Assembly: GCA_013178305.1 (NCBI GenBank) | Contig: JABLXB010000001.1 | Location: 750,253 to 814,252 of the forward strand | Length of the DNA stretch: 64,000 nucleotides | DNA from: Bacillota bacterium | GTDB taxonomy: Bacteria; Bacillota; Sulfobacillia; JABLXB01 | Direction of reading: 5' to 3' | In this document: positions 2,121 to 54,941 of the stretch, one piece after another | Position numbering within the stretch: the stretch's first letter is position 1 | How the letters are laid out: every line of letters starts with the position of its first letter | Translations under genes and position numbers: made by a program | The notes under the pieces: model-generated | Database searches by the model: none | What the model was told of the DNA's origin: nothing | Seen by the model: the letters and a program-made list of their open reading frames with translations, nothing else

Positions 2121-2245
2121 TTCTCTCATCCTTCAGATTGGATGGCTCTGGTTCACCATCACCACTCTGCCGGGTTTGGCACCAAGCGTACGCCGGTTGC
2201 CGAGGAGTCATCAGGCCAGGTCCCTCGTCCTGCTCTCGATAAGAG
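2121..2245 (-). ncRNA. SAM-I (S-box) riboswitch upstream of metK
   Basis: Read on the minus strand, the region opens with CTCTTATCGAGAG and GAGGGACCTGGCC, continues with GATGACTCCTCGGCAACC and GGTGCCAAACCCGGCAG, and closes with GGATGAGAG. These are the conserved P1, P2/kink-turn and J3/4 blocks of the S-box aptamer in the correct order. The 5' CTCTTA pairs with the 3' GATGAGAG to close P1. A terminator hairpin follows at 2091-2110. SAM binding is expected to favour termination and so reduce metK transcription. Confidence 0.96.
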
Positions 2246-2381: not shown

Positions 2382-2786
2382 CTACCGGCTTTCACTTCTT
2401 GTTGGGTTCCCCTCGCGCGCGTCGTCCAGATGCATTTGCTTCACGAGGCTCTCATACAGCATCTTGCCGAGGCCTAGCCCGCCCGACTGCGATATCCAGC
2501 CGGAAAACTGGTCGTCGGCGATGCCCATTTGTATGTCCGCGCCAGCGGGGCCGTTGCCGGACACCCCGGTCTTCAAACCGGCAGTGGACTTCAGCCCCTT
2601 GAGCACTTCCCTGACGAGGAACGCCTCGAACTCCTGGCAGACCTCCTTGAGCCTGCGGCGTTCGATCTCCTTGGGTGAAGGCTTCGAGGCACCGCCGGTG
2701 CCCGTAGTACCCGGGCGGCCTGCCGCCGCGTTCCACGCGGACGCGACAAGATCCGCCGCGCGTAGCGGCGTGGAATCGAGACTCAA
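2382..2786 (-). CDS. Rod-binding protein, FlgJ N-terminal domain type
   Basis: The 134-residue protein matches the rod-binding domain found at the N-terminus of FlgJ. It has the family core KEVCQEFEAFLVREVLKGL (about residues 50-70), then a Gly-rich stretch and a C-terminal MLYESLVKQM helix. There is no muramidase domain, as is usual in Bacillota, where the peptidoglycan-cutting function is separate. It would cap or chaperone the growing flagellar rod. I choose TTG 2786 because GGAGGTGAT lies just upstream; another in-frame TTG at 2804 precedes the Shine-Dalgarno. It is the last gene of the flgF-flgG-flgJ operon controlled by the c-di-GMP riboswitch, 41 bases after flgG. Confidence 0.85.
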   Translation of the reverse strand: MSLDSTPLRAADLVASAWNAAAGRPGTTGTGGASKPSPKEIERRRLKEVCQEFEAFLVREVLKGLKSTAGLKTGVSGNGPAGADIQMGIADDQFSGWISQSGGLGLGKMLYESLVKQMHLDDAREGNPTRSESR

Positions 2787-2827
2787 GGTATCACCTCCAC
2801 GCAAGAAACGCCCGGAGGGCGTCCAGA

Positions 2828-3604
2828 TTACCGCCTGATGTTGTTCGCGATACCGAGCATTTCGTCGGAGCTCTGGACCACCTTGCTGTTGAGCTCGTAG
2901 GCCCTCTGCGCCACGATCAGACTCACCATCTCCTCAACGACGGACACGTTAGCGCGCTCCAGGTAACCCTGGCAGATGCGTCCCATACCCTCATTCGCCG
3001 GAGTCCCTTCCCTGATCTCGCCGCATGCCTCAGTCTGGCGGAACAGGTTGTGACCGACTGACTCGAGCCCGGCCGGATTGACGAACCACGACATCTTCAG
3101 CTGGCCTACTTGCTGGATGCTACCGTCGGCGCCCCGCACGGTGATGATGCCGTCGGCCGAGATGGAGACGTCCTGCGCGTCCTCGGGCAGCTGGATCTCG
3201 CTGCCGCCGTCGTCCTGTACCTTGAAGCCGTCTGTCGTCACCAGGTACCCCTCGCCGTCTATCCTGAAGTTGCCGTCGCGGGTATACATGGTCTCGTCAC
3301 CGAGGGTAACGCAGAAGAACCCCTCACCCTCGATCGCGAGGTCGAGCGGGTTTCCGGTCGGCTCGGTCGCACCCTGGGTGAACGACCTCTGCCCAGCGCC
3401 CGGTCTCACGCCGTGGCCCACCTGCAACGGACCGACGGGAGACGCCCCCGCGCCGCGAAGGGTTTCGTAGAACAGGTCCTGGAAGGACACCCTGGCCTTC
3501 CTGTAGCCGGTGGTGTTGACGTTAGCGAGGTTATTGGCGATGGTATCGACGTTGAGTTGCTGGGCATGCATGCCCGATGCCGCAGTCCACAGCGACCTTA
3601 TCAA
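2828..3604 (-). CDS. flgG: Flagellar basal-body rod protein FlgG
   Basis: The 258-residue protein forms the distal flagellar rod. The N-terminus MIRSLWTAASGM, the ANNLANVNTTGY motif (about residues 25-36) and the C-terminal AQRAYELNSKVVQSSDEML heptad segment are the paired rod/hook signatures that form a coiled coil in the axial structure. Length equals that of B. subtilis FlhP/FlgG. The start is TTG, with GAGGAGG upstream. It follows flgF by 95 bases in the same operon. In B. subtilis the same pair (flhO-flhP) follows mbl, as here. Confidence 0.95.
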   Translation of the reverse strand: MIRSLWTAASGMHAQQLNVDTIANNLANVNTTGYRKARVSFQDLFYETLRGAGASPVGPLQVGHGVRPGAGQRSFTQGATEPTGNPLDLAIEGEGFFCVTLGDETMYTRDGNFRIDGEGYLVTTDGFKVQDDGGSEIQLPEDAQDVSISADGIITVRGADGSIQQVGQLKMSWFVNPAGLESVGHNLFRQTEACGEIREGTPANEGMGRICQGYLERANVSVVEEMVSLIVAQRAYELNSKVVQSSDEMLGIANNIRR

Positions 3605-3699: not shown

Positions 3700-4467
3700 C
3701 TACACCCTACCTATCTCGTTAACCGCCTTGTCGAGCGTCTGGTCCTGGGATTGGAGCAGGCGCTGGTTGGCCTCGTACGCCCTCATCACGGAGATCATCT
3801 CAACCATCTCGATGACTGGGTTCACGTTGGACATCTCTATGCACCCGGGCTTCAGCGACGGGGCCTCAACCTGTTCGGGATTCCCGGAATCCTCAGTCTG
3901 CCTGAACGTGGTCGTGGAGAACTTCGCGAGTCGCACTGGGTCGCGGAAGCGCACAACCCTCAACCTGTCGACCTCGTTGCCATCCTCGAGCACCGCACCC
4001 TCGGGCGAGATCTCGGCCCTCTTGCCCTCACCGAGCTGTATCTCGCCAGCCTCGCCCAGCACGGGGTCTCCGTCCTGGGTCATGAGCCTTCCGTCGGACC
4101 CTATCGTGAGGTTACCGTTCTTGGTGTATCTTTCGCCGGTGGCGGTCATTACGACGAGGAACGCGTCGTCCGGTACCAGAACGTCGAGCGGGTTTCCGGT
4201 CTCCTTACCGGGGCCCTTCGTCATGTCTGGAACGGATTCGGAAACGACGGCGCCGGTCCCCACCGGCCCGAGCTGGGCCTCGAGCGAGCCCCACAGGAAC
4301 CCGGGGTTACGAGTACGGTAGATCAGCATCTCGGGGAAGGAGTTGGTCACCGGCACGTCCTTCTTGAAACCCGTCGCTCCGGCGCTGGCGACGTTGTTGG
4401 AGATGACGTCGAGGCGAGCCTGTTCGAGCAGCATTCCCGACGCCGAGGTGTACATGCCTCTTATCAA
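3700..4467 (-). CDS. flgF: Flagellar basal-body rod protein FlgF/FlhO type
   Basis: The 255-residue rod protein starts MIRGMYTSASGML and has the N-terminal ISNNVASAGATGFKKD motif, a central beta-rich region with GNPLDVLV, and the C-terminal MRAYEANQRLLQSQDQTLDKA helix typical of axial flagellar proteins. It is more divergent from the FlgG consensus than its neighbour, which fits the FlgF/FlhO paralogue. The start is TTG after AAAGGAGGG. It is the first gene behind the c-di-GMP riboswitch and its terminator, so the whole rod operon should respond to that second messenger. Confidence 0.93.
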   Translation of the reverse strand: MIRGMYTSASGMLLEQARLDVISNNVASAGATGFKKDVPVTNSFPEMLIYRTRNPGFLWGSLEAQLGPVGTGAVVSESVPDMTKGPGKETGNPLDVLVPDDAFLVVMTATGERYTKNGNLTIGSDGRLMTQDGDPVLGEAGEIQLGEGKRAEISPEGAVLEDGNEVDRLRVVRFRDPVRLAKFSTTTFRQTEDSGNPEQVEAPSLKPGCIEMSNVNPVIEMVEMISVMRAYEANQRLLQSQDQTLDKAVNEIGRV

Positions 4468-4490
4468 ATTTCGCCCTCCTTTCGCCCGGA

Positions 4491-4539
4491 AAATAAAACC
4501 TCCCGGACACGGACTCAGGTAGCGCCGGAAGCCGGGAGG
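4491..4539 (-). terminator. Terminator downstream of the c-di-GMP aptamer
   Basis: On the minus strand CCTCCCGG and CCGGGAGG form an eight-base-pair stem around a large loop, followed directly by TTTTATTTT. It lies between the aptamer (4574-4660) and the flgF start, the normal place for an expression platform. Confidence 0.85.
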
Positions 4540-4573
4540 ACCAAAACCACTCCCCCAAATGAAAACGGACTTT

Positions 4574-4660
4574 CGGCGGCCCAGCCGTCATAGCCCGGTA
4601 CTGCGCGGGCTTTAGACCTGTCGGCTTTGCGTCCCCACCTTTCGGTGGGTTTGCCTTTTC
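4574..4660 (-). ncRNA. Cyclic di-GMP-I (GEMM-I) riboswitch upstream of flgF
   Basis: The minus strand shows the GEMM-I landmarks in order: AAAGGCAAACC, a short stem with a GAAA tetraloop, GGGGACGCAAAGCC, a GG-CTAAA junction, a second stem, and GGGCTATGACGGCTGGGCCGCC-like 3' sequence. The GAAA loop and its receptor position are both kept. The aptamer is followed about 35 bases later by a strong intrinsic terminator (4491-4539) and then flgF-flgG-flgJ. C-di-GMP binding is expected to change read-through into the rod genes. I cannot tell whether it is an on or an off switch. I saw no clear promoter upstream. Confidence 0.95.
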
Positions 4661-4756
4661 GTTGCCCTCTTGAAGGTCGCTATTCAGTTTCGGCTGACAC
4701 GTAGGTCACACATTCGACGCTTTTTCCAGAATTCCTTCTCTGGCACGTGGAGGAAA

Positions 4757-5782
4757 TCACATCACTCTCTTCAGCACGAGGACGTGGTCCTCGCTGGCGC
4801 CCTCGAATTCGACGAGCGCCTTGCCTGCCCCGAGGACCACGCTGGATATCGGGTCGTCGGCGACCTGGACGGGAACTCCGGTGTGGTGCGAAAGCAGTCT
4901 GTCCATGCCGTAAAGAAGCGCGCCACCGCCGGTCAGCACGATGCCCCTATCCATAATGTCCCCAGCGAGCTCGGGCGGGGTCTTCTCCAGCACTGACTTG
5001 ACGCAGTCGACGATCTCGTGTACCGGTTCGGAGAGCGCCTGGCACGTTTCCTCGGAAGTCACGACGACGGTCTTGGGCAAGCCGTCCACAAGGTCGCGGC
5101 CCCTGACCTCCATCGATTCGTTCCGTACCCCGGGGAACGCGCAGCCGACGTGTATCTTGACCTCCTCCGCGGTTCGCTCGCCGACGGCCAGGTTATGCTC
5201 GCGCCTGATGTGCCTCACAAGCGCCTCGTCGAACGTGTCGCCGGCCACCCGGATGGACTGGCTCAACACAATGCCGCCGAGTGACAACACCGCGATGTCG
5301 GTCGTCCCGCCGCCGATGTCGACCACCATGTGGCCGCCGGGGCCGGTTATGTCTAGGCCCGCGCCGATGGCCGCCGCGAGCGGCTCTTCGATCAGGGAAA
5401 CGGCCTTCGCGCCGGCCTGGAGCGCAGCCTCTTTCGCCGCCCGCTTCTCGATGGAGGTAGCGCCGGACGGAATACACACCATGACTCGAGGTCTGAACAG
5501 ATTCCACTTACCGCAGACCTTGGCGAGGAAGTACTTGAGCATAGCCTCAGTGACGTCGTAATCGGCTATGACGCCGTTACGCAACGGCCGGATCGCCACT
5601 ATCGATCCGGGGGTGCGGCCTATCATTTGCCGCGCGGCCTCGCCAATGGCGAGGATCCTGCGGGACTCCTGCTCTATCGCCACGACGGAGGGTTCCTTGA
5701 GGGCCACGCCCTTACCCTTGACATAAACGAGCACGGTGGCGGTCCCCAGGTCGACGGCCACGTCCTGACCCCACGAGAACAT
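4757..5782 (-). CDS. mreB: Rod-shape determining protein, MreB/Mbl family
   Basis: This 341-residue actin-like ATPase polymerises under the membrane and guides the elongation machinery. The phosphate-1 loop DLGTATVLVYVKGKG, the connecting EPLAAAIGAG, the phosphate-2 loop VVDIGGGTTDIAVLSLGG and the adenosine motif VLTGGGALLYGMD are all present. The short N-terminus before the first motif lacks an obvious amphipathic membrane helix. Position next to spoIIID and the flgF/flgG pair matches the mbl locus of B. subtilis, so this is probably the Mbl-like paralogue. The start is ATG after GGAGG. An inverted repeat (5814-5838, CCCCTTT/AAAGGGG) lies in its leader. Confidence 0.94.
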   Translation of the reverse strand: MFSWGQDVAVDLGTATVLVYVKGKGVALKEPSVVAIEQESRRILAIGEAARQMIGRTPGSIVAIRPLRNGVIADYDVTEAMLKYFLAKVCGKWNLFRPRVMVCIPSGATSIEKRAAKEAALQAGAKAVSLIEEPLAAAIGAGLDITGPGGHMVVDIGGGTTDIAVLSLGGIVLSQSIRVAGDTFDEALVRHIRREHNLAVGERTAEEVKIHVGCAFPGVRNESMEVRGRDLVDGLPKTVVVTSEETCQALSEPVHEIVDCVKSVLEKTPPELAGDIMDRGIVLTGGGALLYGMDRLLSHHTGVPVQVADDPISSVVLGAGKALVEFEGASEDHVLVLKRVM

Positions 5783-5940
5783 ACGATTCCTCCTTCGTGG
5801 TAGGGCCTGTCCCCTTTAAGGCCAAACAAAAGGGGGCAAGGCTGTGTGATTGTTCTACGCGGTGGATCGTTTCTCCTTTGAAGGTCCTGGCGTCCAGGCG
5901 CCGGAACCCCCCGCGTCGCAGGGCGCCTGCGGGGCCGCAT

Positions 5941-6189
5941 TCATGCCTGGCGGTATTTCTTCCTGGTAGCCTCTCCGCCCCTGATGTGCCTCTCGGCCTT
6001 ATTGAACTCGAGAACCTGCTTGACGTGCGCGGCAAGCTGCGGGTTTATGCGGGGGAGCCTTTCCGTCACGTCCTTATGTATAGTGCTCTTGGAGACGCCG
6101 AACGCTCTCGCGGCCTCGCGGACCGTGGCCTGCGTGCGGTATATGTGATCGCTGACGTCGAGCACCCTTTTCCAAATGAGGTCGTTCAC
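5941..6189 (-). CDS. spoIIID: Sporulation transcription factor SpoIIID
   Basis: The 82-residue DNA-binding protein carries the SpoIIID helix-turn-helix (VREAARAFGVSKSTIHKD, residues 23-40) and the family C-terminus AERHIRGGEATRKKY. In the mother cell it works with sigma-E to switch gene sets. I choose GTG 6189, which follows GAGGAGG and gives the length of the B. subtilis protein. The frame is open far upstream but that part is not conserved. A sigma-E-type promoter candidate lies at 6237-6264. The downstream gene is mreB/mbl, as in B. subtilis. Confidence 0.96.
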   Translation of the reverse strand: MNDLIWKRVLDVSDHIYRTQATVREAARAFGVSKSTIHKDVTERLPRINPQLAAHVKQVLEFNKAERHIRGGEATRKKYRQA

Positions 6190-6236
6190 TTTGGGGGCCT
6201 CCTCCCGGTAGAGGTTCAGCGGTGACGTCCAGTTCA

Positions 6237-54665: not shown

Positions 54666-54941
54666 TGTCCGATCTTCCTCCCCTTTGAGAAAGTGTGGTC
54701 TACACGAACTTACTTCTCTGTGTTGTTCCTCCTCGGTTCCCTAATCCCCCCCTTCAACAATCGCACACCTTGCGGGCTTGCCATTCTTGCCTGCTCCCGC
54801 CATTTGCGGAAGCCTGAAACTAATGAACCACAAATTCGGTCCGCATACGCATTTTTCCTGCTCAGGCGAGCTTCCCTCGGTCAGGGAGTTGTTGGAACCA
54901 ATAAACTCGGCAGATTCTCCAGGAACCTGCCAGCATGCTAC

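Follow-up and report, generated by a model that had tools for sequence, protein, structure and literature searches.

Both the riboswitch class and the type of flagellar target considered here are already known, the closest case being Cd1 (Cdi-1-3), which precedes the flgB operon of C. difficile. As described in the available parts of three reports, Cd1 lies after a sigma-A promoter and before an invertible switch and controls flgB, and it has in common with the present locus a class I aptamer, an intrinsic terminator and a flagellar rod operon (PMC5386303, PMC6366702, PMC9262584). Cd1 was shown to be an OFF switch (available parts of PMC9262584 and PMC6366702). According to the accessible text of PMC5386303, C. 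difficile flgB is transcribed from the sigma-A promoter and SigH lowers the expression of flagellar genes; hence, the wiring proposed here would differ. Unlike Cd1, the switch predicted in this work also precedes a separate distal rod operon, flgF-flgG-flgJ, where it lies behind a sigma-H-like promoter.

FlgF and FlgG (FlhO and FlhP) complete the rod, and the B. subtilis flhO-flhP operon has mbl in its neighbourhood. These homologous distal rod genes are listed with SigD-controlled genes and are affected by a Rho-controlled antisense RNA, and the available parts of the two reports make no mention of a riboswitch (PMC5540618, PMC12153297). The portion available of PMC5540618 links weak flhO-flhP expression to a build-up of FlgM and reduced SigD activity. 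In the open-access papers searched, no c-di-GMP riboswitch was described before flgF/flhO or behind a sigma-H promoter, and Sudarsan 2008 and Weinberg 2017 might list one. What appears to be new is the paired sigma-H-like promoter and the distal rod operon as a target.

The best reading of the locus is direct control of rod-gene transcription by c-di-GMP. With a probability of about 0.66, the flgF-flgG-flgJ leader is predicted to contain an OFF class I c-di-GMP riboswitch that acts by transcription termination, and to have a sigma-H promoter of its own, situated just past the end of mbl.

Arrangement of the flgF locus

The window, i.e. the whole stretch of 64,000 nucleotides that was analysed, carries on its minus strand, in this order, spoIIID, mbl, the aptamer with its terminator, flgF, flgG, a flgJ-like gene, a SAM riboswitch and metK. 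The 289-base gap between mbl and flgF houses the aptamer and the terminator. A promoter-like element precedes them, and these parts and their order are conserved. The features are as follows.

5941-6225 (-), spoIIID, sporulation regulator, upstream neighbour (TIGR02844, 137 bits, above cut-off)
4757-5782 (-), mbl, MreB family, immediately upstream gene (NF010539, 490 bits, and TIGR00904, 466 bits, above cut-offs)
4712-4736 (-), predicted sigma-H promoter, AGGAATT (4730-4736), 11-base spacer, GTCGAAT (4712-4718), 12 of 12 consensus positions
4572-4665 (-), c-di-GMP-I riboswitch aptamer (RF01051, 75.4 bits, full length)
4568-4578 (-), aptamer tail CGCCGAAAGTC, which would form the 5' strand of the antiterminator (complementarity, and conservation across three genomes)
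4550-4556 (-), G-rich linker, proposed partner of the terminator 5' arm in the antiterminator (predicted fold)
4523-4533 (-), GGCTTCCGGCG, which would form the 3' strand of the antiterminator and overlaps the terminator 5' half (complementarity and conservation)
4499-4539 (-), intrinsic terminator hairpin (dG -20.2)
4490-4498 (-), U tract of the terminator, TTTTATTTT (sequence reading)
4474-4482 (-), RBS of flgF, AAAGGAGGG (sequence reading and leader comparison)
3700-4467 (-), flgF (flhO-like), distal rod protein, TTG start (TIGR03506, above cut-off; TIGR02490, 161.6 bits, below the cut-off of 178.5)
2828-3604 (-), flgG (flhP-like), distal rod protein (TIGR02488, 309 bits, above cut-off)
2382-2804 (-), flgJ-like protein, weak match (NF009431, 27 bits, below the cut-off of 110), position conserved
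2123-2245 (-), SAM riboswitch before metK (RF00162, 70.1 bits)

FlgG, SpoIIID and MetK passed curated NCBIfam cut-offs, and the FlgF protein passed that of the FlgEFG subfamily and missed that of the flgF equivalog. As the match of the third gene is weak, its name, FlgJ, is taken partly from context. The sequence-only reading had placed the riboswitch in front of a rod operon, flgF-flgG-flgJ, of a spore-former. The rod operon is borne out, with flgJ as a 27-bit match, and Spo0A, SpoIIAA, SpoIIID and SigH are all present in the genome, in line with sporulation. A SAM riboswitch was also observed near the same flagellar block in 10 of 20 fetched loci of relatives.

Aptamer and terminator

In a cmscan search of the whole window, the RF01051 match scored 75.4 bits (gathering score 35, E 5.5e-13) and covered all 87 of 87 model positions. 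The covariance model thus confirmed the GEMM-I aptamer that had been claimed from the letters alone, and the interval given for the element, 4491-4660, was correct within a few bases. The claim of a strong terminator likewise held, as the hairpin at 4499-4539 (-), which starts 32 bases downstream of the aptamer, is followed by TTTTATTTT at 4498-4490, with seven T in the eight positions after the hairpin. Hairpins of this type are not unique to the site, as the window as a whole has 17 on both strands at a threshold of -12 with at least six T of eight, and four of the 17 reached -20 or better; a single Markov-random sequence of 64 kb gave six at the -12 threshold. On free folding, the whole leader was no more stable than its shuffles (z -0.48), and the case therefore depends on the covariance model and on conservation.

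Conservation in related genomes

The survey included 61 genomes, i.e. that of the window and those of 60 relatives. An RF01051 match was present in 58 of them and a FlgF-like match in 50 (E 1e-15, weaker FlgG-type matches being among the 50). Comparison of coordinates, with a check of the downstream genes, placed the riboswitch directly before flgF in 19 genomes including that of the window, and at locus L076 the first gene after the riboswitch is nearer to FlgG in sequence. Since the same RNA lies directly upstream of flgF in 18 other genomes, its position in the window is not due to chance. The order spoIIID-mbl-riboswitch-flgF-flgG is retained in most of these 18, and the FlgF proteins outside the family of the window are only ~32-45% identical. 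A terminator-like hairpin was seen in 17 of the 19 flgF leaders, by a loose criterion and as a count without a shuffle control.

An Rfam scan of 14 further flgF loci revealed three degenerate, low-scoring copies (L046, L056 and L058, all from family f23) and none in the other 11, and flgF loci beyond these 19 and 14 were compared by coordinates only. The three low-scoring RF01051 copies lie between mbl and flgF; one has a 132-base insertion and two are aligned over 57 bases only. Tandem riboswitches are further candidates in the surveyed genomes, with pairs of RF01051 matches ~70-120 bases apart on one strand (G012:C16:290-583, G003:C56:58181-58472 and G018:C69:52907-53158).

A sigma-H-like element upstream of the aptamer

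The sigma-H consensus, known from B. subtilis, is RNAGGAWWW-N11/12-RNNGAAT. Between mbl and the aptamer, the window has AGGAATT CTGGAAAAAGC GTCGAAT, and when the 19 flgF leaders were set side by side, a block AGGAWTT-11 bases-GTCGAAT just upstream of the aptamer was common to them. The available part of PMC7438776 gives SigH-dependent promoters of this form for C. difficile. A narrower pattern, AGGAWTTT-N8-12-GTCGAAT, gave 0 matches and was too strict, the window having AGGAATTC. A scan of positions 4400-6000 found no sigma-70 consensus promoter. The element is predicted to be a sigma-H promoter, which would time the rod genes to the transition to stationary phase and sporulation.

The co-occurrence of the element with the riboswitch was scored for 90 of 193 RF01051 matches, with shuffles of single bases giving the expected counts. 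In the 100 bases that precede the aptamer, at least 11 of 12 positions matched at 16 of 19 flgF, 13 of 21 flgB, 0 of 11 Tad-pilus and 8 of 39 other riboswitches, where the shuffles expect 0.25, 0.43, 0.08 and 0.31 cases, respectively. At a score of at least 10, the corresponding counts were 18/19, 19/21, 2/11 and 15/39. Some of these genomes come from the same genus or family, and as all are related within the class, neither these counts nor those of conservation are all independent. None of 12 flgF loci that have no riboswitch (eleven loci and L083) scored at least 11 within 400 bases, which indicates that promoter and riboswitch tend to appear and vanish together. The three additional flgF riboswitches of family f23 are not accompanied by the element, and neither is spo0A in those genomes.

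The genome encodes SigH (386 bits). It contains 39 matches to the consensus versus two to the reversed pattern, and when spacings of 3 to 24 were allowed, 119 matches versus 13 reversed ones, with 19.5 matches for each of the spacings 11 and 12 and 4.0 for each of the other twenty. The genes right after the matches include spo0A, spoIIAA and dnaG, all identified above curated cut-offs. Across genomes, the element (score of at least 11, upstream 200 bases) precedes spo0A in 13 of 22 and metK in 1 of 22. In B. subtilis, dnaG is a sigma-H gene. In C. difficile, spo0A and spoIIAA are sigma-H genes and dnaG is under sigma-A, as given in the accessible text of PMC7438776.

Another perfect sigma-H-like element is located in the window at 54834-54859 (-) and is followed after ~170 bases by the gene of a surface protein, which appears S-layer (SLH)-like by sequence and has only weak NCBIfam matches.

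Predicted direction of the switch

In the mechanism proposed, RNA polymerase with sigma-H would initiate ~40 bases upstream of the aptamer, as suggested by the position of the element. At low c-di-GMP, the terminator 5' half (CUCCC and GGCUUCCGGCG) would be taken up in pairing with the aptamer tail (CGCCGAAAGUC) and with the G-rich linker; the terminator would be blocked and the rod genes made. With c-di-GMP bound, the tail would be kept in the aptamer, so that the terminator could form and the rod genes would be off. Given a working switch, the OFF sign is quite probable.

The OFF arrangement is favoured because a conserved complement of the aptamer tail sits in the terminator 5' half. In the window and two members of its family (L063 and L064), both the tail (GCCGCCGAAAGTCCG) and a terminator segment, GGCTTYCGG, are kept, while the linker between them drifts. 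When the transcript was stopped just before the terminator 3' arm, the MFE fold was more stable than the aptamer and platform folded separately, by 8.4 (window), 13.3 (L063) and 9.0 (L064) kcal/mol. In this fold, tail and terminator segment pair with each other in the window and L063; the L064 pairing, between the tail region and the 5' half of the terminator, is related but not identical.

Equilibrium folding of the complete leader left the terminator probability nearly unchanged, at 0.89 with the aptamer free versus 0.94 with it locked. For the flgB leader of the same genome (L001), the probability rose from 0.01 to 0.96. In several other leaders, the test chose composite hairpins reaching into the aptamer, and the numbers for those leaders were not used. 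The duplex of tail and terminator was no better than shuffles of this GC-rich segment, with p 0.32 for the window, 0.07 for L063 and 0.27 for L064, and this crude test did not separate flagellar from Tad riboswitches.

Alternative explanations

It is unlikely, though not negligibly so, that the riboswitch is real and AGGA...GAAT is something other than a sigma-H promoter, namely a sigma-A variant or another conserved site, or that read-through from mbl produces the leader. The end of mbl is just 20 bases upstream of the element, and transcripts reading through from mbl, at 4757-5782 (-), would also traverse the riboswitch. Moreover, the element precedes many non-sporulation genes, and a sigma-A promoter serves flgB in C. 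difficile (PMC5386303, available part). A sigma-A or read-through explanation is, however, at odds with the peak at spacings 11-12, with spo0A, spoIIAA and dnaG among the genes that follow the matches, with the difference between spo0A and metK across genomes, with the co-occurrence of element and riboswitch, and with the lack of a sigma-70 consensus promoter in 4400-6000. Quite improbable is a switch of reverse sign, in which bound ligand would promote read-through (ON), the behaviour of the C. difficile pilA1 leader. Both signs are known among class I and related cyclic-dinucleotide switches from the available text of PMC6366702 and PMC9262584, and neither equilibrium folding nor the duplex shuffles discriminate the sign. 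The conserved complement within the terminator 5' half is nevertheless the layout of an OFF switch, and the L001 flgB leader behaves as one on folding. The tail also prefers the 5' half over the 3' arm in the window (-18.9 versus -11.2) and L063 (-19.0 versus -10.4), but not in L064 (-19.4 versus -25.5).

A changed ligand, either 3',3'-cGAMP or whatever RF03167-type variants bind, would be very improbable for the window aptamer. Of the 18 orthologous flgF leaders, 11 score best with RF03167 (c-di-GMP-I-GGC of Rfam), and many orthologues thus favour it, but the window copy favours RF01051, for which reason the ligand change was rejected for this copy. In the RF01051 alignment, the window also has a G at model position 11, which we take to be the position of G20 in Vc2. 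The G20 base of Vc2 sets ligand selectivity, as stated in the available part of PMC9262584. The window aptamer hence belongs to the c-di-GMP-I class, and c-di-GMP is its predicted ligand. In the set of 20 fetched leaders, RF03167 outscored RF01051 in 12 (L063, L065-L067, L070, L071, L074-L077, L079 and L082), and its match falls where the window and other relatives favour RF01051.

Other riboswitches and c-di-GMP genes

RF01051 has three matches in the genome of the window. The second copy (L001, C5:103349) lies between codY and flgB-flgC, FlgB and CodY being confirmed with NCBIfam, and it is accompanied by a near-perfect sigma-H-like element. A homologue of SigD (271 bits, C5:123933) is encoded on the same strand ~20 kb downstream of this riboswitch. 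The available text of PMC6366702 places sigD within the 23-kb flgB operon of C. difficile. Together, these features suggest that c-di-GMP would gate both the proximal and the distal rod genes, and gating of both rod operons would stop assembly early, along with the late genes should sigD belong to the flgB operon in this genome. The third copy precedes a TadE-like gene, named by sequence reading and from relatives among the other leaders, as no NCBIfam match to it was found. Seven GGDEF matches were identified in the genome, one of the genes being ~1 kb left of the window start. No EAL match was found there, and c-di-GMP may be broken down by another family, e.g. HD-GYP.

That both rod operons of a single genome carry c-di-GMP riboswitches, and that these are conserved across the class, raises a broader proposal, to which we would give an even chance: throughout this class of spore-formers, the flgB and flgF rod operons would differ from ordinary growth-phase genes in being sigma-H (transition-state) genes with a c-di-GMP OFF riboswitch, and the Tad pilus genes would have c-di-GMP riboswitches without sigma-H. 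Such an AND-NOT gate would restrict rod building to conditions of low c-di-GMP in which the sporulation-entry sigma factor is also active. It would predict that flagellar assembly is coupled directly to the sigma-H/Spo0A transition state, and flagellation would become a branch of the sporulation-entry decision, the opposite of C. difficile, where sigma-H lowers flagellar genes. This promoter arrangement, its recurrence before flgB and its class-wide conservation were absent from the sequence-only reading, which had dealt with the aptamer, the terminator and the genes downstream. Among the 90 riboswitches examined, 11 precede TadE-like pilus genes without a good sigma-H element; these Tad-type loci are L003, L012, L014, L021, L125, L135, L138, L143, L149, L155 and L156.
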